Positions 1 through 60,876 of a stretch of DNA of 64,000 bases are shown one piece after another (the stretch's first letter is position 1; each line of letters begins with the position of its first letter). Source of the stretch: Taxillus chinensis. Taxonomy: Eukaryota > Streptophyta > Magnoliopsida > Santalales > Loranthaceae. The stretch lies in assembly GCA_023512835.1 (NCBI GenBank), contig CM042090.1:53183365-53247364 (forward strand), written 5' to 3'. A program made the position numbers and the translations under genes. Under the pieces are notes generated by a model. That model searched no databases and had not been told where the DNA came from. It saw nothing but the letters and a program-made list of their open reading frames with translations.

Positions 1-614
1 TTACAAGCCTTAACTTTACCAAAAGTATAAAACATAGGTAAGGCCCAAAAATTTGAATGAGGCAGATTCTGGAGGTCCCATTCAAAAATTCATAACTTGA
101 GTTATACAGATCCAATTGACATGAAACCAAAGCCCATTTGTTCATTTATTACTTAGCTAAAACGTGTAAAAAATTCAGAATTTAATATGAAGCCAATCAA
201 TTCCAGAAGTTAAAATACTACACATAGGTTCAGTATGAACGGGTAAACATTTTAGTATGACTTTAAAATTCAATAACTTTTGTTATACATATGCAAAAAT
301 TATAAAATTGATACCAATTTGTAGATATTTGAGTTAGTAATGCAATAAAATTGGCCGTTTGTCAAAAACTATAAAATTAAAAATGTTATAATTGAATTAG
401 TAGGGAGTACACCAATGTGGACTTTTGATGCCAAAGGAACCTTCTAGGTTTAAAAGTCTTAAAACATTTTTAAATGGTAGGAGGAGATAACCACGTTTTT
501 AATAAGAGATAATATAAGGAAAATAAAGTATTATATATATTTTAAATAATTTAATTTAATGCCAAAGTCAAATTCGTACACTATTTTTCACACTATTACA
601 CCTACCACCTTACC

Positions 615-33425: not shown

Positions 33426-33470
33426 ACTTTAAGGGGGTCATTTTCGTCTTTTACCCTTGTGGCGAATCAC

Positions 33471-33478
33471 TATAAAAA
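33471..33478 (+). promoter_or_regulatory. Candidate internal TATA box for the Athila accessory ORF
   Basis: TATAAAAA within CACTATAAAAAGGGAGGGG lies 83 bp upstream of the accessory ATG at 33554, with a C/T-rich leader in between. A separate subgenomic transcript is inferred, not shown. Confidence 0.5.
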
Positions 33479-33553
33479 GGGAGGGGCTCCAAGCTTGAAA
33501 CTCACATCTCATACTTTCTTCCTGCCGAGAGCAAATTCCTTTCCGGGTTAGTC

Positions 33554-34935: not shown

Positions 34936-34953
34936 CACAATTTATACGGGTCA
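34933..34953 (+). repeat. 21-bp remnant of the Athila 3' LTR
   Basis: These 21 bases are identical to the last 21 bases of the 5' LTR (26878-26898) and abut the TSD. Everything from the accessory ORF end through the rest of the 3' LTR has been deleted. Confidence 0.85.
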
Positions 34954-34958
34954 GTCTC

Positions 34959-39551: not shown

Positions 39552-39553
39552 AG

Positions 39554-39568
39554 TGGTATTAGAGCAAG
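39554..39568 (+). other. Primer-binding site (SIRE-p)
   Basis: TGGTATTAGAGCAAG lies two bases after the LTR. It differs from SIRE-m by one base (C to T), which would weaken pairing with initiator tRNA-Met. Confidence 0.9.
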
Positions 39569-39612
39569 TTCTATTTGTTCTAAATAGAGATCCCACTCTT
39601 TCGCTCTCAACA

Positions 39613-41900
39613 ATGGCCGAAGAAAGCAGTATGCTATTCAACACTCGCCTTAACTCCGGAGCTGCACAAGAGCCCATCCCGAATCGAAGCAGCAGTGAAA
39701 CATCGACCCACCTTAACCTACTGCTGCCTCCACTGCTCAACCACGGAGTTCTGGTTTTACTATGACAAAACCGCCCAAATTCACACCTGAGCTTTTCTCC
39801 CAGTGGAAAGCTCGCATGAAGATGTTCATGGTATGCCATTACCATCTCATGTGGCCCTGTCTTCATCAGGAGATTTCAATTCCGATGACAATCGGAGAAC
39901 ATGGAGTTAGAAGGCCAAAGACGGATGCCGAACTTACCAACGATGAAAGAGCCTGGCAGTGCGCTAGCGAAAAGGCTCTGGCTTACGTTACATTGTCTTT
40001 GGATTCCGAGGCCTTCACGGACGTCCAGGGCTGCACAACAGCAAAAGCTGTGTGGGATAAACTGACAATCCTCTATGAGGGGAGTCAGTCCCAGATGCAG
40101 AACGTTATCTGTACTCTCAGGCAGAACTTTGAGAGTTTCAATTATAAACCAGGCGAATCACTCGAAAGCATCTATCGGAGATTCGGCAAGCTCATTCTTG
40201 AGCTGAAGACTGTCAATGAGCATTATTCTCAATCTCAGATCAATGACAAGTTCTATCATTCCTTGCCGGATCGATACTACTCCAAACAACTCCAGATGCA
40301 ATCACACAAAAACTGGCAGTATGTTCCCCTTGAAGAACTATATGGAGAGCTGCGGACTCACGAAGTTAGGTTTAAGTACTCTGACCGGGATGAGAAAATA
40401 GCTCGGAAGGAAAAGGGGGTAGCTCTCAAAGCTACGGAATGTTTAAACATACTGAGGAATGATGATACGGACGCGTCCGAGAATTCTGATTCTGACGAGG
40501 AGGAGGAGATAGCTCTTCTCATCAAATCCTTTGAGCGATTCCTATGAAAAAGCAGAAAAGGATTCAGGAGACGCTCATCATCTTTCCAATGGAAGGAGAG
40601 ACCGGAGTCCAGTTCCCAGGAATGCTACAACTGTGGGAAAACCGGTCATTGGGCCAAGGACTGCAGATCCAAATCAAAAGTGGCCGAGAAAAGTGACAAG
40701 GTAACTCCTCGCCGCTCCACCTCAGACAACAGCAAGAACAAGAGGAAGGCGTTCGTGACAAAGTACATCAGTGGCTCGGAAGAAGAGGAGGAATCCTCGG
40801 ATGATGAGCCAACTCCTAAGCCGAACGTCTGCCTCATGGCAAATAATGAGGTACCTTCTATCTCTGAGCTCATGAGTCAATTAGAATCTCTTATTATTGA
40901 ACGTGATTATGAAAAGAATGAGAGACTAATAATTACTCAAATGTACAAAGATGTGGAAAGTTAGAATAAACGCCTTGAGTTTACTATTACTAGACTTGAA
41001 AAGGACATAGCTGACTTCAGAGGAAAAGAGGCTTGGTATCATGATCTAAGAGCTGAAAATCATCTGTTAAATACCAACCTAACGGGCCTAAAAGTTATTG
41101 TGAAACGACTCGAAAATGAACTGGAACAGGAAAGGGAAATAAATCGTAAGTGGCTAAAATTCGGGGAAATAGCCTCTACCTTTAGGACTGATCCTGACAA
41201 CATCCGAGTCAAACCTGGCCTAGGTTCCGAACCATCGACTTCTATAGCTCAAGCTACTGAGTGTCCTCCGGATTTCACTCCAAAACTAACCAACTTATAT
41301 CCTGTTAGTACATCTAAACCGTTGGATGGTTTCATTTCAGGTGGCACCATAGTTTATGACTGTGGAGTTGAGGCTGTTATTGCTCTTCCCGAAGCAGTTG
41401 CACCCGTAACTAAAGATGAAGGGAAGGCTACTGTAGTTAAATCCAAAACTGTAGCACCCAAAAAGAAAGAAAAGGCTAAGGCTGACGCATCTAGGGCCAA
41501 GAATGCGTCACCCAAATGCAATGGATTAGGCCACAGGGAACAGAGTAGAAAGTCTGTAAAATCTAAGAGACCCGTATCCCCTGTTTGTACTCTGCATTAT
41601 AGTGTCTGTTCCATCTGTAGGGAAATAGGTCATTATCACTATGAATGTTGGAGTTTATCTGATAACTGGCTTTGTAATCAAATTCATATTAATAAAGATC
41701 AGTTAAATAAAAAGGGTTCTACGAGCAAAACAAAATCTAAACTTCAAAAGGAGTATCGCTCCCAAGAAAATCCAAATAAAAGAGGCAGCTGAAACTAACA
41801 AGTTAAAGTCAACTTGGAGAGCTAAAAGTCCCAACAAAATCAAATCCGGAACTGTTGACATTACTGCTGCTCTCTCTAACCGCCAGAAACAAGTTTGGGC
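39613..41900 (+). pseudogene. gag: SIRE-p gag
   Basis: The ATG at 39613 (MAEESSMLFNTRLNSG) is in one frame until about 39700. The capsid-like domain is in the next frame from 39762 (KPPKFTPELFSQWKARMKMF to SLPDRYYSKQL), of the copia-type gag/UBN2 family. That frame continues to 41792 with two stops (TGA 40545, TAG 40961). It includes the zinc knuckle CYNCGKTGHWAKDC (about 40621-40662), an acidic Ser/Glu stretch, a long coiled coil (about 40860-41150) and a Lys/Ala-rich tail. A Cys/His box CSICREIGHYHYEC follows near 41607. The frame is lost around 41740-41940 before the protease. Confidence 0.86.
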
Positions 41901-41946
41901 ACCAAAAGTGTAAACTATTGTCTTTCAGGAGCATCTCTGGAATGCA

Positions 41947-43807
41947 TTGCCGGATCACTTGAAGTTAAAAATCAATCAAAGCAAGTGGATCCTCGATAGT
42001 GGATGCTCCGGACATATGACGGGTGATCAGACTCTACTTGTTGAAGTGAATGACAAACGAGGTCCATCCGTTTCATATGGTGACAACAGCAAAGGTAAGA
42101 TTGTCGGGTATGGCACTTTAACTAACAGCTGTATATCAATCACTAGAGTTGCACTAGTCGAAGGTTTAAAGCATAATTTGCTAAGTGTCAGTAATTTATG
42201 TGACAAAGGATTTACTGTTTCCTTTATGTCCAACACCTGTACAGTAAGAGAAAACTTATCCGGAGATGTTAAGTTATCCAGATCAAGAGATGGGGACATA
42301 TACTCAGTGGTCTTAAGAAATAATTCTTCTGACCCTGTATGCTTCCTCACTAAAGCTTCAGATGAAGATAGTTGGCTATGGCACAAGCGATGCGTACATT
42401 TAAACTTTAAGACATTGTCTAAGTTAGCATCACTTGATCTTGTCACTGGTCTACCTAAACTCAAATACTCCAGAGACACTCTCTGTCGAGAATGCCAACT
42501 CGGCAAACAGACCAAACATAGCTTTAAGAGTAAATCAGTTAATTCGATTACTGCTCCTCTGCAACTTCTTCATATGGACCTCTATTGTCCTATTTCTGTT
42601 CCTTCGCTTGCTGGTGCGAGATATACCCTTGTGGTTATCGATGATTTCACCAGATACACATGGGTGATGTTCCTGAAATCAAAGGATCAAACTTTTGTGC
42701 ATCTTGTAGATCTTTTCAATTGGATAAGTAACTCACAAGGACTGAGCATAAAGTGCATCAGGAGTGATCATGGTACAGAATTTGATTTTTCAGAAATGAG
42801 ATCATATTGTTCTGAACAGGGCATACAACATGATTTCTCTACGCCCAGAACTCCACAACAAAATGGGATAGCTGAGCGCAAGAATCGTACCTTAGTTGAG
42901 GCTGGTAGATCAATGTTAGCAGGGGCAACGCTTCCTCTCAGTCTATGGGTCAAGTTGTGTCCATCGCCCGCTATGTTCAAAAAGAACTCTAATAAATAAA
43001 TCTACCATGAAAACACCCTATGAGATGTGGAGAGGATGAAAACCTTCAATTTCACATTTCAAGCTTTTTGGTGTACTTGCTACATATTGATAAATGGCAA
43101 AGAGACCCCGGAATAAATTTGAACCAAAATCTGATGATGGGATTTTTGTCGGGTACTCATTACATAGCAAGGCTTATCGGGTCTTCAATAGAAAACTTTT
43201 TAAAGTTGAAGAAACTATCCATGTGACTTTTGATGAAGCTAATCCTGATTGGTCAAAAGTTATTTCTTCAAGTTCTAATGTGCAGGTCCTGGAAAGCAAC
43301 ATCGATTATTCGAAGTTTATGAATGTTCCTGTTACACATTCTGACCAACCTCGTGGCATCAGCGAGGCACAAAGAAATTATATGGATGATGCTATGGATA
43401 ACTCGGACTCCGGACTACCATTAAGCTCCGGACATACTCCTACGGAAAACCAAAATTCCGAGGCACCTTCAAGTGCGTCCGGACCAGTTAACACTGAAAG
43501 AAACAGTGTTGAAGAATCACCTAGTTCTACCGTACCTTCTAATACGGAAACATCTAGTCCGGAGGAAGCCCAACCAGCAGATACACCTAAACCACCTAAT
43601 CTGGCAGAGCTTCAAATTGTTCAAGATCATCCATCACATGCACAGAATTACAGATGGACCCGAAACCATCCCTCAGATCAAGTGATTGGTGATCCTACTG
43701 TTGGTATAAGAACAAGAGCAGCCACCTCCAACATGAGTCTTCACTCATGTTTTCTATCTCAAATAGAACCAAAGGTGGCAGATGAAGCTCTTCAGGATTT
43801 GAATTAG
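41947..43807 (+). pseudogene. pol: SIRE-p protease and integrase
   Basis: Protease motif WILDSGCSGHMTG has its Asp at 41995. A pre-integrase zinc finger (WLWHKRCVH ... CRECQLGK, about 42380-42500) precedes the integrase core, with VVIDDFTRYTW near 42632, SDHGTEF near 42768 and the Glu in QQNGIAERKN near 42872. The frame is open 41947-42999, shifts there and resumes at 43094 (RPRNKFEPKSDDGIFVGYS), with a Ser/Pro/Glu-rich linker to 43807. A TAG at 43805 replaces a Trp present in SIRE-m. Confidence 0.9.
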
Positions 43808-45228
43808 ATAGAAGCCATGCAAGAAGAGCTGAATCAATTTAAGAGAAATAATGTGTGGACTTTAGTACCAAGGCCTAAGTCTCAGCAAGTCATTGGAGTT
43901 AAATGGGTGTTCCGGAACAAGCTTGATACGGATGGAATAGTAATCCGGAACAAAGCCAGACTGGTAGCCAAAGGATATCGTCAAGAAGAAGGAATAGACT
44001 ACAATGAGACCTTTGCTCCAGTAGCAAGACTTGAGGCAATCCGAATGTTTCTGGCGTATGCTTCATATGAAAACTTCATAGTTTATCAAATGGACGTCAA
44101 GAGCGCATTCCTGAATGGAGATCTTCAAGAGGAGGTTTATGTAGAACAACCTCCCGGTTTCATTGAACCTAAAGCAGGACATCTAGTCTACAAACTTCGG
44201 AAAGCTTTATATGGTTTGAAGCAAGTTCCAAGAGCCTGGTACGACACACTGTCGGAATTCCTACTTGCTCACAATTTCCAAAAAGGGAAGATAGATACCA
44301 CCTTATTTCTACGAAAAGAGAAAGGACACACTCTAATCGTACAGATATACGTGGATGATATCATTTTTGGATCAACGAATCCGAAGCTTTGTGAAGAGTT
44401 TGCTAAGTTGATGACAGGCAAGTTTGAAATGAGCATGATGGGAGAACTGTCCTACTTCCTCGGAATAGAAGTTAAACAATTGAAGGAAGGAATCTTCATT
44501 AATCAAGCTAAGTACACTCGCGATCTTATTAAGAAGTTTGGTATGGAAGGTTCATCTCCCGTCAAAACTCCCATGCCTGTCAGTGCCAAGTTAGATCCTG
44601 ATGTGGACGGCATATCAGTAAATGTGACTGACTACAGAGGAATGATAGGATCCTTGCTGTATCTTACAGCAAGTCGCCCGGACATTTTGTTTGCAACTTG
44701 CATCTGTGCACGATATCAGGCGAATCCCAAGGAGTCACATATGCTTCATGTTAAACGGATATTAAGATATCTCAAGGGAATGATGAATTTGGGACTCTGG
44801 TACCCAAAGGAGTCCAATTTCACCTTATCCGGATACTCTGATGCCGACTTCGCTGGATGTCGCATTGACAGGAAGAGCACAAGTGGTCTACTGCTGAGGC
44901 GGAATATATAGTTGCTGGGAGTTGCTGCGCACAGCTACTCTGGATGCAAAGTCGACTTACTGACTACGATTTCAACATGTCATCTATTCCACTCTACTGC
45001 GACAACACTAGTGCAATTGCTATCCGCAACAATCCTGTCATGCACCCTAAGACGAAGCATATTGAGGTCAGGTATCACTTCATACGCGACCATGTTCTCA
45101 AAAATCACATTTCCCTGGAACTTGTTGCTACTGAAGATCAACTAGCAGACATACTTACAAAGCCCCTACCTGATGCAAGATTCTCTGAACTACTCATCCG
45201 ATTAGGTATGCTTGACTTCTCTGCATAG
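43808..45228 (+). pseudogene. pol: SIRE-p reverse transcriptase and RNase H
   Basis: The frame is open 43817-44911 and contains [38 protein letters not shown], the catalytic YVDDIIFGS (44348-44374), [14 protein letters not shown] and RNase H start [19 protein letters not shown] deletion of roughly 55 bp just after RKSTSG shifts the frame. RNase H then resumes ([46 protein letters not shown]) to the TAG at 45226. RT alone is intact here; the RNase H would be disrupted. Confidence 0.92.
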
Positions 45229-46085
45229 TTTCACATTTAAATTACTCAATAGTATACTTACTATCAGAACATGCATTGTGCTTTTAGTGGAAGTAGACGA
45301 TACATACTGTTTTTAATGCTGATCATACTTAACGATTAACGGCTTCATGCTTCGATATTATTATCAACTTCATATTGGGAGGATGCTTGCGTTTCCCGAT
45401 CAAGTCGTTTAAGCAAACATGATTAAAGTTTATATGATTAACCTCATTCCTGGTTTCATGATCTTAATTTCCACTGATCACCACATGACAAAAGCTTGTT
45501 TATTTAGATTACTTTACTAACATGTATAATTGAAGAAATGAAATGGGTTAGCTTGGAATGCCTGGTGGATGAATACTCAATCGCAGATCTGATCAGCAAA
45601 GTATAGTTTCCCAAAAAGATCGACAGGTGCTGAATTTCTATATGACGGAAAGGTCACCCGAGAGGATTGCACAATCTACGGGGGAGAAAATGCTTTATAC
45701 ATTATTCAAGTAATACCCCCCGTATATGTCTCATGACCTGTTTCATGGCTGTCTATTTGAGGGGAGTCTATCATTGAGAGGATCGAATGATCTACGGGGA
45801 GCTTAAGCTTCATCTATTACCTCGATAATAACTCCCTAATATGTCTCGGATACTCACTCCTCTAAACTTTTACTTCCGGATCTGACTGGACATGCGTTGT
45901 AGAAAAGGAATTGAGGCATGCCTGGATGTTTTTCTTTTCTTCAACCATGCATTTTAATCGGATAATCAATTGCTTGCATTTGACATGTGTCCGCTTCCTC
46001 ATTTTTCACTCATGAATCCTAGTTTGATCAAATCATAAGATTTTTAATTAATCTTAGCTACGTCGTTCAGCAGGACGGTTTCGCT
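45229..46085 (+). other. SIRE-p non-coding region after pol (first part)
   Basis: No gene. It matches SIRE-m 17683 to about 16800 (reverse). Two purine-rich repeats, GAGGATTGCACAATCTACGG with GGGAGA following (45661) and GAGGATCGAATGATCTACGG with GGAGC following (45777), recur in SIRE-m. The region is cut by Tekay-B at 46091. Confidence 0.65.
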
Positions 46086-46090
46086 ATGTT

Positions 46091-47896
46091 TGTCACGCCC
46101 CGGTTTTCCAACCCGAGGAGACCGGAACGTGACCCTCCCTTTACCCGGGTTTGGATAAAGGGGTGGAACACAACATACACTTCAGAAACCAAAATTACAC
46201 AATTATTTAATTGAAACCATATGCCTTTATTATCTTTCAAACTTCATTACAATATCTCCCTTTGAGGGTTACAATGCCTCAATAAAATTACATAAGTCAA
46301 ATAACATAAAACAAAGCCACAAAGTAGAACTCTTCCACCTTGGTGTTCCCACCTAACGCCTGTAGGTTCCTGCAAGAAAACACACCATAGTAGGAGGGGT
46401 GAGCATCCACAGCTCAGTAGGATCATGTCTCCCCAACCCATCCCATGCTCTTAGCATCTACATGCCATGTGTATAAGTGCAGTGTCGTGTTACAATAATT
46501 CCAACAGACAATAACAAACCACACCAGTAGTCACAATTATCCACCACACAAACCACAAGTGATTTAACCTCCTCTTCAGGCCAATGATTTAACCGCCTCT
46601 CAGGCATAGTTTCCACAGTCAGTCTCACTGACATTAACTCAACCTCTTAGGCTCCACAGTCAGTCTCACTGACATCAACTCAGCCTCTCAGGCTCCATAG
46701 GTACACAAGCATTGCCTCAGCCTCTCAGGCTTCTTAGGCTCCCCAGACAACAACAGACATTTAACATATATCTCAGTTATTCAGGCATAACAACAAACAC
46801 TTAACATGCATGTCCACCCTGGTATAACGTCAAACATCTAGCATGCATATCCTCACAGACATTACATCAAACACCATTCAGGCATAACCACACTGGCATA
46901 ACATCAACACATAACATGCATGGCCTCATAGGCATAATATCAAACACCTAGTGTGCAGTGCCACACAAGCCTAATCTCAACCCATACTTGCCACTGAAGG
47001 CCAACATTCATATAGGAGGTCACACCTATATGAATTTACATATAGATAGTATAACAATAACAGTAGAAGCTCTATAAATCCTCTACACAGGGCCTAACCC
47101 CAGAACAGATCAGGTGAGACAGAACCCCTACCTTAAAGCAGATCTTCCTTGCTCCCGCGCTAAACGCCGTCCTCCCCATGCAAGATGCTTCGGCAACAAC
47201 CAGCAACTCCCTTTCCTTCTCTCTCTCTAGCTCTCTCTCTCTCTCTACAACGGCTGCAACAGTTGAAAAGAACCCTAAACCTAAAACAGAGGGCTTCTCC
47301 TCCTTATATAGACAAAACGACGTAGTTTTGATGGAACAAGCTATGACCTTCCCACATCCATACACACCAAAATATTCACAATTCCAACATGGTCCTTTGG
47401 GAGAAGATGATTAGAACGACAAAACCAAGGTAACCATGCAAAAACATGCCTGCACGCCAATTTGAACGCCAATTCCCCAATTGGCGTGCAGCTCCAAATG
47501 CACTCAAACTTCACCCCAAGCCTCCTTGCATCTTGTAGAGGTCTAGGAAGCAAAAATATGCTTGCACGTGAAATGGGTGAATTCACGTGCAGCTCCAAAT
47601 GCTCTGAAATTTCTGTGGTAGGTAGAGGACCTCATTCTAAGAAACTTTTGTTCTTGCACGCCAATTGTTTGAGGCCATCTACCCTATCAAAAGTGAGCTC
47701 CAAGATCAGCCAAAATAGCTTAAAACCGCCTGTATACGCGTAGCATCTTTCTAGGGCATAAAGGTACATTATCACTTGTCACATGCACCTCCCAAAAGTC
47801 CCCTCTTGGGCTCATCTCTTACCTCAAACTTGTGCACCAACATCCAAGGTGTTTGTGGTTAACTTCTTACACACGGGTTACACACGGGTCATTACA
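46091..47896 (-). repeat. Tekay-B 3' LTR (1806 bp)
   Basis: On the plus strand it starts TGTCACGCCCC and ends GGGTCATTACA. It contains CAGCCTCTCAGGCTCC-type repeats (about 46560-46745), CT-rich leader sequence (47216-47248), TATA on the minus strand near 47305, one ACGT palindrome (47313-47330) and the hairpin module (47450-47670). Confidence 0.93.
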
Positions 47897-47910
47897 TCCT
47901 CTCCCCTTTA
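47897..47910 (-). other. Polypurine tract (Tekay-B)
   Basis: On the minus strand AAAGGGGAGAGGA directly precedes the 3' LTR start TGTAATGACC. Confidence 0.82.
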
Positions 47911-48232
47911 AGACTTTTCGTCCTCGAAAAGAAATGACATACGAGGAAAACAAACACAAGCTACCCATTTGCCACCCGGCAAGCCACAACACCCAAATGG
48001 GTCATACACCGCGCACAGCACATAACAGCACATAACAAGGTACCACCATAATCCATAACCACAATAATGCATATAACACATATCCGCATGTCACAAATAC
48101 ACATCTCAAAACACATCACAAATATGAACACATGTCTAAAAGACAATACAAATACACCAAATCGTACACAACTAATACAAGAAAACACATCACTATCCCT
48201 TGGCCAACAGCCACCTCCCATGCTTAAGATTG

Positions 48233-49771
48233 TTCGTCCTCGAACAATTCTGGGTGCTGCTCACGCATCACGGACTCACGTTCCCATGTCTCCTCCTCAA
48301 TGCCACGGTGCTACCACAGCACACGAACCAAAGGAATAGCACGACCATGCAAAAGCTTCTCTCGCCGATCTAGGATACGGATAGGGGCCTCAACAACGTA
48401 CATGTCATCCTCAATGTCTAAGGTCCCCCAATCGATCACTTGGGTGGGGTCAGGGTGATACTTCCACAACTGGGACACGTGAAACATGTTGTGCACTCGA
48501 CTCAGCCGCGGTGGTAACGCTAACCGGTAAGCCACGGGCCCCACACGATCCAGAATCTCAAAAGGATCAATAAACCGGGGAGATAGCTTGGAACCTTGCC
48601 CAAACCGTCGATGTCCACGATGTGGAGAGACACGAAGGAACACATGATCACCAACAGAAAACTCCAAAGGTCGCCGCCGCTGATCCGCATAAGATTTCTG
48701 CCGACTCTGAGCTGATAACAACCGCTGACGAATCAACTTAACCTTCTCGGTAGCCTCTTGAACCATCTGTGGTCCCAAGAGAGTGGCTTCACCGACCTCA
48801 GTCCAACACAACGGTGATCGACGAGTGCCGCCATACAACGCCTCAAAAGGAGTCATCCCAATGGACGCCTGAAATCGTATTGTGTAGGCAAACTCCACCA
48901 AAGGAAGGTGAGTTGCCCACGAACCCCCAAAATCTAACACACAGGCCCGTAACATGTCCTCCAAAGTCTGATTCGTCCTCTCTGTCTGACCGCCAGTCTC
49001 AGGGTGAAAGGCTGTACTCAAGTGAAGCTTGGTCCCCATAGCCTCCTGCAAACCTGCCCGAAAACAGGAAGTGAACCTCGAATCCCGGTCAGAGACAACC
49101 GACAATGGTACTCCATGCAGTCGCACAATCTCGTTCATGTATAGCTGACTCAAGGTCCCAATAGAGTCCCGCTCGCGAACAGCCAGGAAATGGGCTGACT
49201 TTGTGAGCCGATCCACAATCACCCAAATCATATCCTTCCTCCCACTGGTGGGTGGAAGACCAGTCACAAAGTCCATCGCGATGTGGTCCCACTTCCACTC
49301 CGCTATGGGCAAGGGCTGTAACATGCCCGCCGGCCGCTGATGCTCAGCCTTCACCTGCTGACACGTGAGGCACCACGAAACAAAAGCAGCCACATCGCAT
49401 TTCATCCCAGGCCACCAAAAATGTCCTCGAAGCGCATGGTACATCTTCGTACCCCTTGGATGCATAGCAACTCTAGACTGGTAAAACTCCCTCATCACCT
49501 CATCCCTGAAGGAAGAAGCCACTACCAACCGCCCCTGAAAAGACAACTCATGCTCAGGACCCTCTGTCCAGTCCTCCGATAGCTCCCCAGCCTCAATACG
49601 GGCACGGAGAACCTCACACTCAATGTCACCCAACTGTTCCTCCCGGACGCGCTGGTACAACTCAGGCACAACTACCAAAGGACTCAGGACTGTCCCATTA
49701 TCGCGAACAACGAGTGCCGCCACTGCAACATCGCCAATCGCTCCCATCGGCTTCCACTCTTGCACGGCCAC
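48233..49771 (-). pseudogene. pol: Tekay-B integrase and chromodomain
   Basis: The minus-strand frame from 49771 contains the HHCC finger (HPRGTKMYHALRGHFWW ... CLTCQQVK), [22 protein letters not shown] (catalytic Glu) and the GPF-like module, and runs to TAG at 48311-48313. The stop falls inside the chromodomain just after IPLVRVLW. The downstream half (EEETWERESVMREQHPEL) is still in frame to about 48233, so one nonsense change removed the domain's C-terminal helix. The core integrase is otherwise open, while the link to RNase H is lost by a frameshift near 49860. Confidence 0.9.
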
Positions 49772-49845
49772 CTCGGCTTTCCCTTTTCTCGCTCAACGCA
49801 TCAGCCACAATATTACCCTTGCCCGGGGTATAGGCAAGAGTAAAG

Positions 49846-51129
49846 TCAAAGGTCTGCAAATACTCCACCCATCTCCTCTTGCCTCAAATTCAAGTCCTTC
49901 TGGGTAAAGATGTACTGAAGGCTCTTGTGATCTGAGAACACCACAAACTTCTCCCCCAAGAGGTAATGCTGCCAACTCTTCAGGGCGAAGATGACAGCCA
50001 CCAACTCAAGGTCATGAGTAGGATAATTCTGCTCATGAGGCTTCAGCTGCCTTGACCCATAAGCCACCACACTGTGCTCCTGGATAAGCACACACCCCAA
50101 ACCAACCCTGGACGCATCACAGTACACCTCATATGGGATATCCTCCTGAGGTAACCTCAACACCGGTGTAGTGGTCAAACGGGTTTTGAGAGTCTCAAAC
50201 GCCTGCTGGCACTTGTCCGTCCACTCAAATTTCACTCCTTTCCTAGTCAACGCCGTCATAGGAGCCGCCAAGCGGCAGAACCCCTCGACAAAATGACGAT
50301 AGTACCCCGCCAAGCCAAGAAAACTACGGATCTCAAAAACGTTGGTTGGCCTCGCCCACGATGCCACAGCCTCAATCTTGGCTGGGTCCACCCTAACTCC
50401 CTCAGCTGACACCACATGGCCAAGAAAGTGAACCTCCTGCAGCTAAAACTCACACTTGCAAAACTTAGCAAACAGCTGCTGGTCCCTCAAGGTTTGCAAC
50501 ACTGTTGCCAGATGTTCCACATGCTCCCTCTCGGTCTTGGAATATACCAAGATATCATCTATAAACACCACCACGAATGAGTCTAAGTATGGGGCAAAGA
50601 CTTGGTTCATCAAATGCATGAACACCGCTGGCGCATTAGTGAGCCCGAAAGGCATCACTACCCACTCATAGTGCCCATACCTGCACCGAAAGGCCGTCTT
50701 AGGGATGCCCTCCTCCCTAACCCTGAGCTGGTGATACCCCGACCGTAAATCTATTTTGGAAAACTACTGGGCCCCACTCAATTGGTCAAACAGGTCGTTT
50801 ATCCGAGGCAACGGGTACTTGTTCTTCACAGTCACTAAATTCAGCTTCCTATAATCTATGCAGAGGCGAAGCGTGTCGTTTGCCTTCTTTGCAAAGAGCA
50901 CCGGAGCACCCCAAGGTGAGGTACTCGGTCTGATATACCCCTGGCCCACCAACTCCTCGATTTGCCTCTGAAGCTCCCTCAACTCAGCTGGCCCCATACG
51001 ATACGCTACTTGGGAAATCGAACCCGTCCCCGGCACCAACTCAATGGTGAACTCCACACTCCTCTTAGGTGGCAACCTCCTCAACTCTTCAGGAAAACAT
51101 CCTGAAATTGGTCCACAACAGCGGGCCAC
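49846..51129 (-). pseudogene. pol: Tekay-B reverse transcriptase and RNase H
   Basis: One minus-strand frame covers 51129-49846 with two stops, TAG at about 50764 (where a Tyr codon is expected before FSKI) and TAG at 50443 (where Trp is expected after KCEF). Visible motifs are [22 protein letters not shown], catalytic FIDDILVYS (about 50545-50571), [24 protein letters not shown] and [11 protein letters not shown] of RNase H. The frame shifts near 49860 toward the integrase. Confidence 0.9.
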
Positions 51130-51236
51130 ACCCTCTTTTCCACCTTCCCCTCCTCAGCAAAGGTCAGGGCTGCCAACCTGTGGGTAATGGCACCCCACTG
51201 GTCTAACACTAGCCCAGCCCGACTAGCCTCACGATC

Positions 51237-51722
51237 CTACTCCCCCTGCAAGGTGCAAGAAACCCCCGCAGGTGACACAAAGGAAACCCGCCGCCGATAA
51301 CAGTCTATCTTGGCCTGGAAAGCCATAAGCCAATCCATACCCAAGATCAGGTCAAACGTCCTCAAAGGCATTACATGCAAGTCAAAACTCAGCTCCACCT
51401 CTCCTATGGTTAACACACAATCACGACACACACGCCGTACCTCAATCATACCCCCCACTGGAGACTCAACAACTAGGGGCTTCGCTGCCTCCACACAAGC
51501 TAACCCCAAGCTATCTATCACAAGCTCAGCAACAAACGAACATGATGCACCCGTATTGAAAAGAACAGAAGCTAATGTACGGGAGATCAAAAGGGTACCT
51601 CTAACCACCGATGGTCTTGCTCCACCCTCAGCTGGTGGGGGTGGTAGCTCAGCCTCCTCCTGGTACGTCGCCTCTAGCGCAAACACCCTTCCTTGGCCCG
51701 TGCCACTGGTCGGCTCACTCAC
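51237..51722 (-). pseudogene. pol: Tekay-B aspartic protease with Asp-to-Asn active site
   Basis: The minus-strand frame shows VVRGTLLIS, LFNTGASCSFVA and LILGMDWL, the flap and C-terminal landmarks of the chromovirus protease. The catalytic triplet reads Asn-Thr-Gly; the Asn codon is at 51554-51556 where Asp is required. A single G-to-A change explains it. The frame ends at 51237 before the shift into RT. Confidence 0.88.
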
Positions 51723-51821
51723 TGGACGCTTCCCGCTAAGGTTGCCTCCAGCTTCAGTCTGCTGCCGCTCCGGCCTCCCCTGGGGTTGGGTCTGGCTAGA
51801 TCCCGCATGGCTAGCCTGCCA

Positions 51822-53007
51822 CTAACGGGCTGGCCTCTCCGCTGGAGCGCGGAAACTAGCATCGCTCCTCATGCTGGATGCCACACCTCCTGCTCCCCTG
51901 TAGCCACTCCTGCACACCCGGCTCAAGTGGCCCTCTCGCCCACAGTTGTTACACCGCCAGTCCTTCTTCGGACATTCCCTCTTGAAGTCACCTTGCCTCC
52001 CACAACAAAGACAACCGCTGAGGGAACCTCCTGCTGAACCTCCCTGCCCATTACCGCCAAGGGTGAACCTCCCTGGGTTCACAGATGATTGACCCCGGCT
52101 GCGGTAAGAACTATTATCTCTCTCCTCGGTCTTGGGCCTCTTGGACCCAAGAATCGCGTTCGGACCCACCTTGCAATCGGCGACCCTGGTGAACCTGCCT
52201 TCCATCATCCAGTTCCCTCTCAGCTATGCGCGCTGTCTCAACAACCTCAACATAGGTCCTCAAACGCAGAATCGCCACCCTCTGCCTAAGAGCTGGCCTG
52301 AGACCCAAAGTGAACTTGTGGGCTTTCAGGTCCTCCTTTGCCACAGTCTCGGGGGCAAATCTACTCAAGCTCCGGAACTCCCGCTCATACTCGGGCACCG
52401 TCTTTGATCCTTGCTTCAGGCTGCCAAATTCTTCTCTCTTCTGCAATCTCAAGGACTCAAGGAAAAAGTCATCGTGGAAGAGTTGCTAGAACTCCTCCCA
52501 CAGCATAAACTGCACCGCACGGCTCGCCGCGACACTCTGCCACCACTCCAGAGCATTCCCCTCTAGCTGCCGAATGGCCAGCCTCACCTTATCCTCCTCC
52601 CAGGGTAGGAGAAAGGAAAACACATGTTCGATCTGCCTCAGCTAGTGCTCAACTAACACTGGGTCCTCCTCTCCTTTGAATCGCGGAGGTTGTTCCTTTC
52701 GGAACCGTGTCACTACGTCATCCTCTGCACGAATCGGTATACCACTCAGTGAACCCTCACGCTCCCGGGGTAGCTCCCCCACTGGTGGTGGCACCACCTG
52801 CTGGGCTGCCATCTCGCGGCGCACCTCCTCCCGTACCTCTTGCCGGATACCCTCCCTCAGCTCTAGGACTTCAAGCCGGATGCCTTCTCGCAGCTGCACC
52901 AGCAACAATGCATGCCCTCCAACGGACTGTCCCGCACCCGGACCCTCATGGGCAGATGACTCATCAACCACTGCCCCGGACGCACGAGTCACTCTCCTTG
53001 GTGGCAT
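51822..53007 (-). pseudogene. gag: Tekay-B gag
   Basis: The minus-strand ATG at 53007 (MPPRRVTRASGAV) opens a Glu/Arg-rich N-terminal domain with an amphipathic helix (EVLELREGIRQEVREEVRR). Stops at 52642 and about 52487 interrupt the capsid-like domain (LRQIEHVFSFL, ALEWWQSVAAS, QGSKTVPEYEREF). The frame shifts near 52160. The zinc-knuckle region follows: CLCCGRQGDFKREC (the usual His replaced by Asp) and CNNCGREGHLSRVC (about 51900-52030). Confidence 0.85.
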
Positions 53008-53426
53008 TCTTACTACATGAAGTAAGAAGCATAAACGTCAGAACGCGTTCGACTACTATCAAGTTTCACTACCTCTACCCCATTATCAAGTCAAGCAGTA
53101 CATGGCATCACACACATTTTTTAACCATTGCATCAATCAACATCGCACACAGCACAGTCCACATTGTAGTCATGCCCAAGGCATTCCAAGCTTATTCAGA
53201 GTTGCATAGTTCACACATAATCATGTTATTCACATCCTTCACACATAGCAACAAATGCGACTAGTGCCCTAATGCCAATGCATGCAAATCCTACCTCAGG
53301 TCTGGACTACCCCAAGTACACCTTAGAGGCTCAAAGAGGACCATGTTGATCAGGCATGTCCCTCCAGGTTCCTCCAAAGGACTCAAGATAACCAGATCCG
53401 CCCACTACCCTAGGCCAACTAGACCA

Positions 53427-53439
53427 TGCTCTGATACCA
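53427..53439 (-). other. Primer-binding site, initiator tRNA-Met type (Tekay-B)
   Basis: On the minus strand TGGTATCAGAGCA starts three bases after the 5' LTR end. Confidence 0.92.
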
Positions 53440-53442
53440 TAT

Positions 53443-55296
53443 TGTCACGCCCCGGTTTTCCAACCCGAGGAGACCAAAACGTGACCCTCCCTTTACCCGG
53501 GTTTGGATAAAGGGGTGGAACACAACATACACTTCAGAAACCAAAATTACACAATTATTTAATTGAAACCATATGCCTTTATTATCTTTCAAACTTCATT
53601 ACAATATCTCCCCGCTGGGGTTACAATGCCTCAATAAAATTACATAGCGCAAATAACATAAAACAAAGCCACAAAGTAGAACTCTTCCACCTTGGTGTTC
53701 CCACCTAACGCCTGTAGGTTCCTGCAAGAAAACACACCATAGTAGGAGGGGTGAGCATCCACAGCTCAGTAGGATCATGTCTCCCCAACCCATCCCATGC
53801 ACCTAGCATCTACATGCCATGTGTACAAGTGCAGTGTCGTGTTACAATAATTCCAACAGACAATAACAAACCGCACCAGTAGTCACAATTATCCACCACA
53901 CAAACCACAAGTGATTTAACCTCCTCTTCAGGCCAATGATTTAACCGCCTCTCAGGCATAGTTTCCACAGTCAGTCTCACTGACATTAACTCAGCCTCTC
54001 AGGCTCCACGGTCGATCTGCCCGACATCAACTCAGCCTCTCAGGCTCCACAGGTACACAAGCATTGCCTCAGCCTCTCAGGCTTCTTAGGCTCCACAGAC
54101 AACAATAGACATTTAACATATATCTCAGTTATTCAGACATAACAACAAACACTTAACATGCATGTCCAACCAGGTATAACATCAAACACCTAGCATGCAT
54201 ATCCTCACAGACATTACATCAAACATTATTCAGGCATAACCACACTGGCATAACATCAACGCATAACATGCATGGCCTCACAGGCATAATATCAAACACC
54301 TAGTGTGCAGTGCCACACAGGCCTAATCTCAACCCATACTTGCCACTGAAGGCCAACATTCATATAGGAGGTCACACCTATATGAATTTACATATAGATA
54401 GTATAACAATAATACTAGAAGCTCTATAAATCCTCTACATAGGGCCTAACACCAGAACAGATCAGGTGAGACAGAACCCCTACCTTAAAGCAGATTTTCC
54501 TTGCTCCCGCGCTAAATGCCGTCCTCCCCACGCAAGATGCTCCGGCAGCAACCAGCAACTCCCTTTCCTTCTCTCTCTCTAGCTCTCTCTCTCTCTCTAC
54601 GACGGCTGCAGCAGTTGAAGAGAACCCTAAACCTAAAACAGAGGGCTTCTCCTCCTTATATAGACAACACAACATCAAAACGACGTAGTTTTGATTAAGT
54701 GAATCCCAGCATCAAAACGACGTAGTTTTGATGGAACAAGCTATGACCTTCCCACATCCATACACACCAAAATATTCACAATTCCAACATGGACCTTTGG
54801 GAAAAGATGATTAGAACGACAAAACCAAGGTAACCATGCAAAAACATGCCTGCACGCCAATTTGAACGCCAATTCCCCAATTGGCGTGCAGCCCCAAATG
54901 CACTCAAACTTCACCCCAAGCCTCCTTGCATCTTGTAGAGGTCTAGGAAGCAAAAATATGCTTGCACGTGAAATGGGTGAATTCACGTGCAGCTCCAAAT
55001 GCTCTGAAATTTCTGTGGCAGGTAGAGGACCTCATTCTAAGAAACTTTTGTTCTTGCACGCCAATTGTTTGAGGCCATCTACCCTATCAAAAGTGAGCTC
55101 CAAGATCAGCCAAAACAACCTTAAACCGCCTGTATACGCATAGCATCTTCCTAGGGCATAAAGGTACGTTATCACTTGTCACATGCACCTCCCAAAAGTC
55201 CCCTCTTGGGCTCATCTCTTACCTCAAACTTGTGCACCAACATCCAAGGTGTTTATGGTTAACTTCTTACACACGGGTTACACACGGGTCATTATA
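53443..55296 (-). repeat. Tekay-B 5' LTR (1854 bp)
   Basis: It matches 46091-47896. It has two ACGT palindromes (54674-54695 and 54711-54732), whereas the other LTR has one. It holds the hairpin module (54850-55070) and CAGCCTCTCAGG repeats (about 53930-54105). The outer end reads ATTATA instead of ATTACA, a point change in the terminal CA. Confidence 0.93.
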
Positions 55297-55301
55297 ATGT
55301 T

Positions 55302-56131
55302 GACCTATATGAACTTGTGTATTTTTATCTGACATATGCCCTGATTCAGTAATATGATCATTCTCTCGTATGTATATGTCTATTACATTCTTTGTCATGC
55401 ATAAGTTCTGTTTCTCATTAGTTCGGATTATGTCGTTCTTCACAGACTATTTTCTCTTATCCGTACTAATCCTTACCTGTTAAGCTTTTGTATTTTTAGT
55501 TTATCTTGTTTCAAGCTACAGGTTCAGATTTTCTTTGCAACCTTATCGGTAAATCTAGTCCATAGTCTTGGATTTGAAGTGTTGTGGTACTTCTCTATTC
55601 TTCGACTTATTGACAAGGAAAGGAATCTACTTCTCTCTCACCGCACTTTGTTACTACGGAAATGGTCTACTTTTCATCCGGATACTCGTCACATGACTAT
55701 CGTTAATTTCGGATGATTGTTGGTTTATTCCTCCGGACTCCAGACACTGTCACATTGCGATAATCCATGTCTTCTTTTATATCGTGTGCTTTTGAGGAGG
55801 AATCATGATGATTCATTAAATGCATATCTCGGGATGCACACACTTCTCCGGAAGCCAAATAGCTGTTACCCTTATTTGGTCATGCCGCCTCCATGTCATC
55901 TTATAATTCGGAGGCGCATCGATATCAAGACTAATGACATCAGCCTGTCAAGCGGTTCACTGTTTCACTCGCCAAATTCCTAGACCCGCTGACATTTACG
56001 GACTCGGTCTTATATATTCTGGTCATTCCTGCAAAGCACGAGTGTTACCCTTTTCAAATCCTTAAACCTCTCGTTGCTCCTTCAATCCACAAGACCTCAC
56101 CTTTCCTCTCGCCCTTCAACTTTCATCTACA
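55302..56131 (+). other. SIRE-p non-coding region before the accessory ORF (second part)
   Basis: It continues 45229-46085 after removal of Tekay-B. No gene is present. GTCTTATATATTC near 56007 is a TATA-like sequence about 125 bp before the accessory ATG. The equivalent in SIRE-m has the same position. Confidence 0.6.
56005..56017 (+). promoter_or_regulatory. Candidate internal TATA box for the SIRE-p accessory ORF
   Basis: CTTATATATTC is followed by a C/T-rich leader (CCTCTCGTTGCTCC, CCTTTCCTCTCGCCC) that leads to the ATG at 56132. SIRE-m has CTTATATGTTC at the same distance. A separate mRNA is inferred only. Confidence 0.4.
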
Positions 56132-58861
56132 ATGGCACCCAGAATCTCTCTTTCCGGCGTTAATCCCGGCCATCTGGTTGATTGGAGCGCTGTCTCCAAC
56201 CCTCCGGACTGGTTTTCCGATATTTGCCCTCTTCTAGAAGCCTCTCACCTACTCGACCTGATCCCCAATCCTGCCGATCTGCTTATAGACGACATCCTCG
56301 AGTTTTACCAACGGATTCGCTGTACCACCGACTCCATCATTTCCTATGTTCGCGGTGAATCCATCCTCATTAACCCCGCCGTTCTCCACGCTGCTCTCCA
56401 TCTACCCCCCGGTGAACCACAGCGCCCCGATGCTGATCCCATGGCAGCTTCTATGGGTTGCACCTACAAAGGCAAGGAATACAAGGTGAAGTCCTTCCAA
56501 GGTCGCTATCGCTGTATGGCGACCATCTTGAGTCGATGTTTACTGGCTCGCACATCCGCCCTGGACTCCGTTCCGTATGACCTTCTTTTGGCCATGTACG
56601 GCATTTTTGAAGGTCTTCCAATGGACTGGGGGACATTTTTGTTCCGATTACTGCAGACTGGACCCAAGAACCGTTCTTTCGGGCGCATACTCAGCATTGT
56701 CTTCCGGCATCTTCATCCGGACCATTTCGCCTGCTCTGAAGCTGTTTCATTCCCTCCGGCCTATTACCTTCGCTATCTGATGCCTGATGGGAACATGACA
56801 ACCCGTCATCCCTCTGCAGCTCTCTGCCCTCTCCCTGCTGCGGAACAACAAGGCAGTTCTGTTGGTGACCCCTCTGCCAGCCATGCCCCAGAGGTCAGCT
56901 CTGCTCACCGGTCCTCCCGGATTCGGTCTGTTGCTGCACCCTCCATTTCTCGGGCTTCCCAGCACAGCGTCCGTGGCGACCCTTCCGAGGTTGCGGGACC
57001 CTCTCAGCGCAGCGTCCCTAAATCTATTTCCTCAGCCCCTTCTGCTGCGGATGTCCCCACACCCTCCACTTCCGCCATTGCTGCCGCGGTTGATACCGTT
57101 GTTGCTGCCGTCATTGCTGATGTCCCAGCATCTACTCCAGAAGCCCCTTTGCCTCCCCTACCTCAACCCCGAGATTACCTTGACCATCTCTTCGCCGACA
57201 CCTTAACGGACCTATGGCTACGTTGTAGCCTTGCCCACACTGCCTCCATTCTTGACACCGATCTCCGGGTGTTTTACACGCGCCATACCCAATCCCCAGA
57301 GACCATGATCATCTGGAACTTGGACCAAGGCTTTCTTACGTCGGCCTCCATTCCAGATGTGTCGTTCCCTACATCTTCTAGCCCGGTCCATGCCGCACAG
57401 AGTTCTTCCCCGGCTTAGGCTGGACCTTCTTCTCCTGCTGCCGCCATTCCCGTTGTTGACCTATCTGGTCAAAGCGGGTCTGCTGCTCCAGATGCCTCTA
57501 ATGCTCCAGATGCCCCTTATGTTGCTGCTGCTGGTACTCCTGCGGACTCCTCTGCCCAGCGCACTCCTGCTCCTGTTCATGCGGGGGAGTCCTCCAAAGC
57601 TCCGGAATTGGTCCATGGGCCTGCTTCTTTTGGCATGGTCCACTCCGACGCTGTGCTCTCCGCCCAGCTGGACCGACACGCTTAAGCTCATAGCCCCCAA
57701 ATATCCACCATCGCCGCCAAGGTTGATGCACTTGGCGCCCAACTCCTCTCCGCTCTCACTGATTCCTCCACTTCCATGGAACAGAAGATGGATCTCGTTG
57801 CCTCGTCCGTCCATTCCTTGTCTACCTCCTTCGCGGACCTGGCGCACACGATGGCTCGCCCTCCCATTGCTTCCCGGCGATCTGCCAAACCGGGGGAGAA
57901 AGTGTCATCTGATCCTTCTGCTCCTCCTGCACCACAACCATCCACTCGTGCTGAGAAGCGACCTGCCTCTTCATTGCTTCAGGGAGTCTAAATTCCCAAA
58001 CGTAGCCGCTTCTCTCAGCTAAGCTCCTCGAGTGCAGCTTTTCCTCCATCCTCTCCATCCGCAGCTGACACCTTCCTCCCATCATACGCGGCGTGTGACC
58101 CTTCAGATGCGGATGGAAGCGTGCATAAGGCAATGAAGTCCTATGCTGTGTCTTCTGCCGAGAGAAGATGTCTCTCTGACCTGTACCCTTTTTCCCCGGA
58201 CGACATTCGGACCCTTTGTTCGGAAAAAGGACTCTTTACAACAGAAGACATTGACAACTTCTCTAGGGCTGCTAAAATGGAGATGAGGCTGTTTCCATCT
58301 CTATACAAGGATGGGCACTTGTTTGAAGTTCTGCCGTGCTGGAATGAAGGCTATCTTCCCAGTGTAGATCTCATTCAGTCCTTCATCGACGGAACTGCTG
58401 AGGATAGCAAGCCATGGAAAACTCTCTCAACTATCCTCATTCCGTACCGGATCATGTCGCCACATTTCATGATGGTTGTCTTCATGATTCAGTCCAAACA
58501 AATGATTCTGATTGATTCTCATCAGATTGTGGAGCATTATGTAAGAAAGAATCAATGGGAACCACTATGTCTCAGGCTGACTGAAGCTGTGAAGAAAGCT
58601 AGATTATATGAAGAGTTGGGCATCACACCCTTGAGTCCAACTGAGAAGCTGAAGGCGACATTCCGGGGCAAGAAGCAAGTGCCATAACAGCCGGATGGAG
58701 ATAGCTGCGGGGCCTTTGTCTGTTACTTCATAAAGTCATTCTTAACTATGGACAAATCTTGGAGTCAACACACCACTTATACGATGAAGCAGACAATGGA
58801 GCTTAGAGAGAAAGCAACAACTATGATCTTCAAGTATAGTAAGCCTTATGTACCTCAATGA
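56132..58861 (+). pseudogene. SIRE-p accessory ORF: plant-transposon-like domain, linker, Ulp1/SENP-like C48 protease
   Basis: One reading frame of 909 codons runs from ATG 56132 to TGA 58859, broken only by four in-frame stops (TAG 57416, TAA 57683, TAA 57989, TAA 58685). Residues 1-200 form a domain with ILINPAVLH, GRYRCMATILSRC (from residue 124), GLPMDWGTFLFRLL and FGRILSIVF, homologous to the Athila accessory ORF. Residues ~225-560 are Ser/Pro/Ala-rich. A coiled-coil-like stretch lies near 520-580. The C-terminal ~250 residues resemble a Ulp1/SENP protease: His778 (SPHF), Asp795 (ILIDS), Gln853 and Cys859 (QPDGDSCGAF). The His-Asp spacing of 17 and Gln-Cys spacing of 6 equal those of yeast Ulp1 (H514, D531, Q574, C580). 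Three of the four stops are Gln codons (CAA or CAG) in SIRE-m. Whether it deSUMOylates anything is unknown. Confidence 0.8.
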
Positions 58862-58990
58862 AAATCTTGTATAAAGGCTGAATTGTATTCTGTTGCTGAT
58901 GAATGAAATTGGTTGTGATGCGTATTCTGTATGATATCTTTTTACACTGCTTACCAGATCAGATTACAAAGGGTTTGGGCATATCCATAA

Positions 58991-59001
58991 TTGGGGGAGA
59001 T
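58991..59001 (+). other. Polypurine tract (SIRE-p)
   Basis: TTGGGGGAGAT directly precedes TGTTGGATCAAG of the 3' LTR. The ~130 bp between the accessory stop and this tract hold no gene. Confidence 0.88.
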
Positions 59002-60871
59002 TGTTGGATCAAGCCCAGAATTTGGATAATGCTGATAAAGCCTTATGTAATTTGATCTGAGATCTTTTGTGTTTCTTTGGTCATTGCAGAAGATATGTTA
59101 TTAATCCGGAGATATACTCGTGAGAGCAAAGCTAAGGACAGGATACATAATCCTGATCCGGACAAGAGTGAGTGTCGTCAAACACTTGGTAAATAACCAA
59201 GTCACCAATACATACGGAATAAGGAACATTCATGCGGACTAACAACTTAAAAGCTATGGATTACGGAATCTGTTCCTAATGCCTCAAACGGACTAAGTCA
59301 AACTGATGCCGAGTAAGAGTCTTAGTCTACAAGGTTGCACGAAGTAAAAGGTTTGACATGGAGTTAAAAAAAGTTAAGTCTTCCCCTCAAGCGAACTAAA
59401 GAAGACACGGAGTAAGGCATCCGAGTCTTTCATACATACGGAGTAAGGAAGTATTGATGCGGAATAAGGACCCGAGTCTTTATTCGCACGGAGTAAGGAA
59501 ACTAGATGTGGAGTAAGGAATCCGGGCCACTTACTCATACGGAGTAAGGAACTTACATACGGAGTAAGGAACTTACTTACGGAGTAAGGAACTTACATGC
59601 GAAATAAGTAAGCGCTGACACGGACTAAGGATTCCAGTACCTAATAGATACGGAGTAAGCAACCACTAACACGGAGTAAGGTTCCGAGCTTCATTAGCAA
59701 CGGAGTAAGGAAAATTACACCGGACCAAGAAGATGCTACTTCAAACTACCGCATTTAAAGTTATCAGCTCGTGGTGTCCCGAGATAGCCTAGCCCATACC
59801 CGTCACAAGAATTTTGTCCGCTTTGGCCAACCAGTCTTGGGCCTCGCCCTCATGGCCTGCTCCGCACGGTTTTGTCTTTGGGCCTCACCCAAAACGCGTC
59901 CTTGTGAGGTGAGGTATCCGTCCCCTCCTATAAGGCGGACTTTGTTCTCCTCACCAAGCAATGTGGGACTAACACCCACTCATGGGTTGTTACAATCCAC
60001 CCCCCTTTGGAGGCCCACGTCCCCATGGGACCATGGCACACCGCTCCGGGTCTGGCTCTGATACCATCCGAGATAGCCCAGCCTATACCCGTCACAAGAA
60101 TTTTGTCCGCTTTGGCCAACCAGTCTTGGGCCTCGCCCTCATGGCCTGCTCCGCACGGTTTTGTCTTTGGGCCTCGCCCTCATGGCCTGCTCCGCACGGT
60201 TTTGTCTTTGGGCCTCGCCCAAAATGCATCCCTGTGAGGTGAGGTATCCGTCCCCTCCTATAAGGCAGACTTTGTTCTCCTCACCAAGCAATGTGGGACT
60301 AACACCCACTCATGGGTTATTACATGTCCCGATGTAAGACAAACTCGTTGAGAACCTGAAGAATCTTACACGTGGATCACCCGGATATGTGGACACAACC
60401 TCAATTATATTTGGGAACTCACAAAGGCACTTATACTCTTCAAACCCAAGATCTTGAGCTCCACAAACCGCAGCAGTCAAGGCAAAGAGATTACCGAGGA
60501 ATAGTTAGTGCTGAACGCATTCCGGAACTACAAGTTCCAAGGTTGTCTCTTAGGAATGTTTGTATAAATATTCATACTTGTACATTTGTGTACATGTGCG
60601 TAAGCAAGCCAAGATCAACCCTGTGTATGCACAAGAGTTCAAAAGATAGAATTAGGCTAGTGTGTGAATCCCTTTGTAAACAGAGTGTAAGAGAGTCTTG
60701 CTTCTATTTTGTTGTATTTATCTTTTGATAATAAAACAAAATACTTCCACTATCTGGTTATCTTCCATAGTGATTCTATCACTTAACTGGATAAATGTTT
60801 GTGTCTTAAGAGATTACAAAGAGTTTTGATAAGAGCCTATTCACCCCCCTCTAGGCTCCAAGGGACCATCA
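59002..60871 (+). repeat. SIRE-p 3' LTR (about 1320 bp plus TRIM insertion)
   Basis: It starts TGTTGGATCAAG and ends GGGACCATCA. It has about four 20-bp units (59541-59610) against about nine in the 5' LTR, which accounts for the ~98-bp length difference. The TRIM with its 5-bp duplication interrupts it at 59780-60324. Confidence 0.93.
59780..60324 (-). mobile_element. TRIM (terminal-repeat retrotransposon in miniature), 545 bp
   Basis: TSD TGTCC (59775-59779 and 60325-60329). Two LTRs, 59780-59994 (215 bp) and 60069-60324 (256 bp), flank 74 bp with no coding capacity. On the minus strand the LTR starts TGTAACAACCC. The internal part begins with a TGGTATCAGAGCC primer site (about 60052-60066) and ends with the polypurine tract AAAGGGGGGTGGAT (59995-60008). 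The 41-bp length difference is a tandem duplication inside the second LTR (about 60128-60215). It must depend on another element for enzymes. The apparent ORFs at 59771-60242 are repeat translations. Confidence 0.92.
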
Positions 60872-60876
60872 ACATT

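Follow-up and report, generated by a model that had tools for sequence, protein, structure and literature searches.

The 64,000-nt window analysed here (contig CM042090.1, 53,183,365-53,247,364, forward strand) comes from the 520.9-Mb genome assembly of Taxillus chinensis (GCA_023512835.1) and contains two copies of a SIRE-like Ty1/copia retrotransposon, copy 1 and copy 2 (SIRE-m). Between pol and the polypurine tract (PPT), copy 1 carries an accessory open reading frame (ORF) of the type known as envelope-like. An earlier note, made from the DNA letters alone, had described this as a 909-codon frame ending in a Ulp1/SENP-like (C48) cysteine protease domain. Its location and length stand, but the frame is not open, being interrupted by four in-frame stops (Table 1), one of which, codon 852, sits one codon ahead of the putative catalytic Gln853. 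The N-terminal domain is similar to PF20167, and it also resembles the N-part of a database protein, P0002, and an ORF on the side of a gypsy element. The earlier note had not described this domain.

The C-terminal domain contains His778 in the context SPHF, Asp795 in ILIDS, and Gln853 and Cys859 in QPDGDSCGAF. These landmarks are as first described, with a His-Asp spacing of 17 and a Gln-Cys spacing of 6, which we take to be those of yeast Ulp1. When the residues of the frame were shuffled 5000 times, the pattern H-17-D-(40..69)-Q-6-CG appeared in 3 cases. The landmarks reported at 13217-13954 in SIRE-m were also found there: its C48 part (13220-13954, minus strand) has all four catalytic residues and one internal stop (TAG). 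When the pieces of the window copy were searched separately, the Pfam profile PF02902 matched in the last 57 residues (E 0.0052); with X placed at the stops, it matched residues 763-896 at 19.8 bits (E 7.9e-4), just under the gathering score of 20.7 bits. Since the window copy alone is under the Pfam threshold, significance is drawn from its sister copies and from the family profile. All five open C-domains among the plus-strand copies of L001-L030 pass the threshold, and PF02902 is found at E <= 0.01 in 20 of the 21 rows of an alignment of relatives (A3). The profile match anticipated in the earlier note was therefore obtained for the relatives, while the broken window copy narrowly misses it.

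Alignment A3 comprises 16 divergent C-domains, hand-picked for open frames, and five further rows, with a mean column identity of 19%. These intact relatives keep the catalytic residues: His in 21/21 rows, Asp in 21/21, Gln in 20/20 and Cys in 19/20 (row L115 stops short of the last two). The His-Asp spacing is 17 in 21/21 rows and the Gln-Cys spacing 6 in 20/20. Searches of a database of 5.8 billion proteins found two homologues. P0002 (708 residues, stop-free) aligns over the N-part (residues 12-225, 25% identity) as well as the C-part (28%), scores 38.5 bits against PF02902, and is the sole C-part homologue found. P0004 (453 residues, on a 1609-bp contig) has an N-part without C48 and may be cut off by the contig end.

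A search of the PDB with a 231-residue piece alone gave no C48 match. The A3 profile matched SENP1 at 1.4e-11, and the alignment brings the stretches around His, Asp, Gln and Cys into register. An AlphaFold model built on the 21-row alignment reached a predicted local distance difference test score (pLDDT) of 88.6, and its top matches among solved structures were Ulp1 and SENP2, bearing out the structural expectation of the earlier note; the fold-matched SENP/Ulp1 chains share 13-17% identity with the domain. This model supersedes one from six rows (pLDDT 41.2), for which Foldseek gave no match at E <= 0.001. The domain is predicted to have the clan CE fold. Judged by profile and predicted fold, the C-terminal 250 residues are almost certainly homologous to C48 proteases.

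Two sets of genomic copies were examined for selection. A genome search with residues 621-851 gave a protein-recruited set (150 scored of 8468 candidates, listed at 89-100% identity), from which 70 copies were taken, including the window copy; together with copy 2 these form the aligned set (n=71). By a strict pattern, a PPT and the start of a long terminal repeat (LTR) lie within 320 nt downstream in 52 of the 70, 18 being missed. The DNA-recruited set was picked by non-coding sequence immediately downstream of the ORF (2652 candidates, of which 40 were scored and all 40 used) and consists of 29 newly taken copies, 10 shared with the first set and the window copy. Choosing copies by protein score pushes the ratio of nonsynonymous to synonymous substitution (dN/dS) down, so the selection argument rests on the DNA-recruited set and the two window copies.

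The close copies are mostly decayed. In the protein-recruited set, His is kept in 70, Asp in 69, Gln in 56 (12 stops, 3 His) and Cys in 64; the corresponding numbers among the 40 DNA-recruited copies are 38, 38, 31 and 35. All four residues are intact in 23/40 DNA-recruited and 49/71 protein-recruited copies, residues 660-908 are stop-free in 14/40 and 29/71, and both hold in 10/40 and 24/71. A stop at codon 909, one codon earlier than in the window copy, is present in 38 of the 40 DNA-recruited copies.

Between copy 1 and copy 2, dN/dS is 0.116 for the C-domain, 0.127 for the N-domain and 0.264 for the linker. The C-domain value is like those of gag (0.115) and reverse transcriptase (RT, 0.135), a favourable outcome of the comparison that the earlier note had suggested; integrase (INT) gives 0.182 and the INT/SH3 part 0.594. 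In the DNA-recruited set, the pooled ratio of nonsynonymous to synonymous polymorphism (pN/pS) is 0.413, against 0.759 and 0.756 in shifted-frame controls. Nonsynonymous to synonymous counts fall from 126:51 among singletons to 27:34 among variants in at least three copies (p 3.1e-4; controls p 0.87 and 1.0). In the biased protein-recruited set, the C-domain gives 0.205, with counts of 104:46 and 27:52 (p 3.7e-7); over residues 853-909, beyond the query, the shared-versus-single test is non-significant (25:11 vs 12:8, p 0.56) at a pooled pN/pS of 0.237. The entire accessory ORF is constrained, the two domains most, and replicating copies have very probably been held under this constraint. Profile, predicted fold, residues and dN/dS together support the central proposal of the earlier note, namely that the accessory ORF of this SIRE-like copia retrotransposon contains a C48 domain of the Ulp1/SENP kind. 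We reject the idea that a piece of a host gene was passively captured and has no function. Both window copies are broken and plant elements are reported commonly to take up host sequence (PMC13317346), but dN/dS on a par with gag and RT, the constraint on the DNA-recruited copies, and the presence of 150 scored copies in one family besides many divergent frames make it scarcely credible.

Searching the genome with P0002 gave 10111 candidates, of which 63 were scored and yielded 101 matches. They comprise one 97% copy and numerous frames, roughly 700-855 residues long and some of them interrupted by stops, whose N-part and C-part match at 26-40%. In stretches of 2.2-2.5 kb, located 1-3.8 kb upstream of seven of these divergent frames, ten of the open frames were scanned, and the hits are always on the same strand as the accessory frame. 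Four of the seven flanks (L117, L119, L120 and L121) encode a Ty3/gypsy RT (RVT_1 with RT_RNaseH). Flank L116 has an integrase core only, the gene order fitting gypsy without proving it, and L118 gave no Pfam match in the two frames scanned. Flank L122, beside the 97% P0002 copy, encodes a Mutator-like element (MULE) transposase (PF10551, E 1.5e-26). L125, next to another P0002-like copy, has a frame 92% alike in the same orientation and at a similar distance; L123 and L124, upstream of a third copy, have no similarity to the MULE frame. A MULE transposase is therefore found 3-3.8 kb from the P0002 relative in two of the three copies tested; nesting is common here, so distance alone does not prove that a frame belongs to the adjoining element. 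A tree of 22 C-domains unites the copia rows in a single clade (100/100) and places P0002 with L101-L105 (92/92, not starred); among the latter, the flank is known for L101 only (the integrase-only L116). The same two-part protein, in forms adjoining gypsy and MULE genes, was not part of the earlier note. With its relatives adjoining genes of mobile elements from two further classes, the accessory gene is likely to be a shared tool.

The window also contains a Ty3/gypsy pol (RT-RNaseH-INT, 29158-32376, plus strand), followed by an N-domain-like stretch (33653-34307, 28% identity). No C48 part was found at this locus (29158-34991, plus strand) by tblastn with P0001 and P0002.

We propose, with a probability of about 0.5, that the accessory ORF encodes a targeted protease whose role would be to remove SUMO, or a modifier related to it, from host proteins. 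The domain is probably catalytically active, given the conservation of its residues. Its substrate would plausibly be a ubiquitin-like modifier, with SUMO the likeliest, as the predicted fold suggests. More tentatively, the N-terminal domain might guide the protease to a silencing complex or to the chromatin of the element, and the removal of SUMO at that site would weaken silencing. We suggest this purpose because a relative adjoins a MULE transposase and VANC proteins of other MULEs are reported to counteract silencing (PMC5735166, PMC10398659). The accessory protein would act in the nucleus, and of the two functions raised in the earlier note, we favour relief of SUMO-dependent silencing over maturation of the particle. 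Clan CE also contains virion proteases, those of adenoviruses, African swine fever virus and poxviruses. By analogy with these, the C48 domain could instead cut gag or the accessory protein itself, which we consider unlikely.

Several observations weigh against the proposed de-conjugating protease. Clan CE includes deubiquitinases and deneddylases as well as the virion proteases. At the position of the Trp of the SENP1 NWLND motif, all four SIRE rows of A3 (L008, L007, L010 and L023) have Leu, while the 17 other rows have Trp, so recognition of the modifier may differ. The constraint is stronger in the protease domain but not confined to it: in the protein-recruited set the variant test is also significant for the linker (residues 431-655; 81:22 vs 29:33, p 3.8e-5), which gives 0.525 there. 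For the C48 core only (763-909), the test is weaker in the DNA-recruited set (57:26 vs 13:14, p 0.067). DUF1985, the domain of VANC proteins, is absent from the Pfam matches of P0002 (E <= 1), P0004 (E <= 10) and the window pieces (E <= 10), and the tie to VANC is therefore one of likeness rather than membership. Finally, close copies carry a non-major residue at Cys859 in 10% and at Gln853 in 20% of cases, against 4.7% for the average codon of 700-908, and one divergent row (L100) carries Ser instead of Cys. This faster loss and the Ser substitution would suit a catalytically idle domain that binds ubiquitin-like modifiers and recruits SUMO-modified host factors without cleavage. Such a domain is improbable, given that nearly every row reaching Cys and Gln keeps them despite the low column identity of A3. 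We read the excess of Gln853 changes, 12 of 15 of which are stops in the 71-copy set, as decay.

The traditional name of the ORF implies an envelope-like protein for cell-to-cell movement, in which C48 would be incidental. The position 3' of pol agrees with this name, extra ORFs there being reported in 74% of SIRE-lineage elements (PMC6317226), and a 19-residue stretch of the Ala-rich linker (315-333) reaches a mean Kyte-Doolittle hydropathy of 1.85, making a membrane helix possible. The hydrophobic stretch is, however, no feature of the family: by the same plain mean, the best stretch of P0002 is its protease core (1.88) and that of P0004 reaches just 1.13. We rejected an envelope function on these grounds and regard it as very improbable.

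A wider version of the de-conjugating protease proposal is doubtful: the SIRE envelope-like gene would encode no envelope but a module of targeting domain and Ulp1-type protease, common to copia, Ty3/gypsy and MULE elements of one genome, each erasing SUMO-dependent silencing at its own copies. Should one such module indeed serve DNA transposons as well as retrotransposons, stripping SUMO-type marks would be a shared way for transposons to counter silencing in plants. What the extra ORF does in SIRE and Athila elements continues to be termed speculative (PMC6317226), and the conserved enzyme domain offers a direct way to test it.

Copy 1 has a pair of LTRs and a 5-bp target duplication. Its gag and RVT_2 pol are of the copia type and an extra ORF follows on the 3' side of pol, an arrangement in keeping with the SIRE lineage (Table 1). 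The LTR pairs, whose ends are placed to an accuracy of a few bases, differ at 35/1318 aligned sites in copy 1 and 18/1171 in copy 2. Features described for Sirevirus are the junction CA-A(T/G)TGG-TATCAGAGC, a C-rich signal near the LTR end, a PPT AGGGGGAG 10 bp from the 3' LTR with an AT/TG attachment site, and several identical PPTs (PMC2829016). Copy 2 has the exact junction, CA-AGTGG-TATCAGAGC, and copy 1 has TA instead of CA and one change in the primer-binding site (PBS). A run of six C (60844-60849) ends 22 bases short of the LTR end and agrees with the C-rich signal. The terminal PPT of both copies, TGGGGGAG, has one mismatch to AGGGGGAG, and its position and AT/TG attachment site are as in Sirevirus. 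Copy 1 has the terminal PPT only, and copy 2 has AGGGGGAG at 17134(-) as well as TGGGGGAG at 13083(-); as multiple identical PPTs were not found, we call the element SIRE-like. The 5' LTR contains nine copies of CGGAGTAAGGA, and high-copy repeated motifs have been described in Sirevirus LTRs (PMC2829016). The insert in the 3' LTR, absent from the 5' LTR, has internal repeats about 290-330 bp apart. Just upstream of the element is an ORF with a G-patch domain (36390-37382, plus strand; PF01585, E 9.3e-9).

Table 1. Features of the SIRE-like copies (window positions)
Feature	Position	Strand	Remarks
Accessory (env-like) ORF, decayed	56132..58861	+	909 codons; in-frame stops at codons 429 (TAG), 518, 620, 852 (TAA)
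N-terminal domain, PF20167 'Transposase_32'-like, residues ~1-240	56132..56851	+	E 1.8e-5, 25.2 bits, under the cut-off of 45
C48/Ulp1-like protease domain, residues 656-909	58097..58858	+	By profile, residues and predicted fold
Putative catalytic codons	His778 58463-58465; Asp795 58514-58516; Gln853 58688-58690; Cys859 58706-58708	+	
Accessory ORF, copy 2 (SIRE-m)	13220..15990	-	Three frames plus one TAG
SIRE-like Ty1/copia element, copy 1	38134..60871	+	LTR pair, target duplication, gag/INT/RVT_2 matches
Target duplication ACATT, 5 bp	38129-38133 and 60872-60876		Both flanks of copy 1
5' LTR, copy 1	38134..39551	+	AGTGG-TATTAGAGC (PBS region) directly after; copy 2: AGTGG-TATCAGAGC
gag (PF14223)	39762..40544	+	Pfam match
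pol, several frames	41947..44908	+	Integrase 41947-42996, SH3-like 43094-43804, RVT_2 reverse transcriptase 43817-44908
PPT TGGGGGAG	58992..58999	+	Then AT, then 3' LTR (TGTTGG)
3' LTR, copy 1	59002..60871	+	Interrupted by ~540-bp insert at 59783-60324
Nested gypsy element	~46090-55294	-	Tf2-type SH3 domain; between copy 1 pol and accessory ORF

C48 domains have already been described in plant MULEs (PMC13317346), CACTA elements (PMC8978399), Ginger1 (PMC2836005) and the nematode NeSL and Utopia elements (PMC4640811). The extra ORFs of SIRE elements are heterogeneous (PMC6317226). Among the top-ranked matches in the open-licence PMC literature, we found no report of C48 in Sirevirus or gypsy envelope-like ORFs, although the supplementary list of extra-ORF domains in PMC6317226 may hold one. 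One review only (PMC13317346) mentions both Sirevirus and Ulp1 there, with no link between them in the relevant passages, and the main text of a review of additional ORFs (PMC7264820) contains neither Ulp, peptidase nor SIRE.

Ginger1 transposases and the NeSL/Utopia non-LTR retrotransposons also have a Ulp1-like protease on a mobile element, but these are animal elements in which, as described, the domain is fused to the transposase or RT protein with no separate envelope-like ORF (PMC2836005, PMC4640811). CACTA elements of Chenopodium and other plants bear Peptidase_C48 in ORF2; they are DNA transposons with other partner domains and, in one case, a 122-bp fragment (PMC8978399). The 3' accessory ORF of sunflower Athila shares the Transposase_32 (PF20167) N-terminal domain and the location 3' of pol, but the element is Ty3/gypsy and the description of its 487-residue protein mentions no protease (PMC11728184). 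The Kaonashi/KIU and VANC genes of MULEs (VANDAL) likewise encode transposon accessory proteins, some VANC genes carrying Ulp1 (PMC13317346), and the P0002 relative adjoins MULE transposases; the window protein differs in being part of a copia retrotransposon and in its PF20167-like N-part. Compared with Ulp1/SENP themselves (C48, clan CE), the domain is retrotransposon-borne, has low sequence identity, lacks in its SIRE rows the Trp aligned with SENP1 NWLND and is only presumed active, yet it shares with them the profile, the predicted fold, and the order and register of His, Asp, Gln and Cys.
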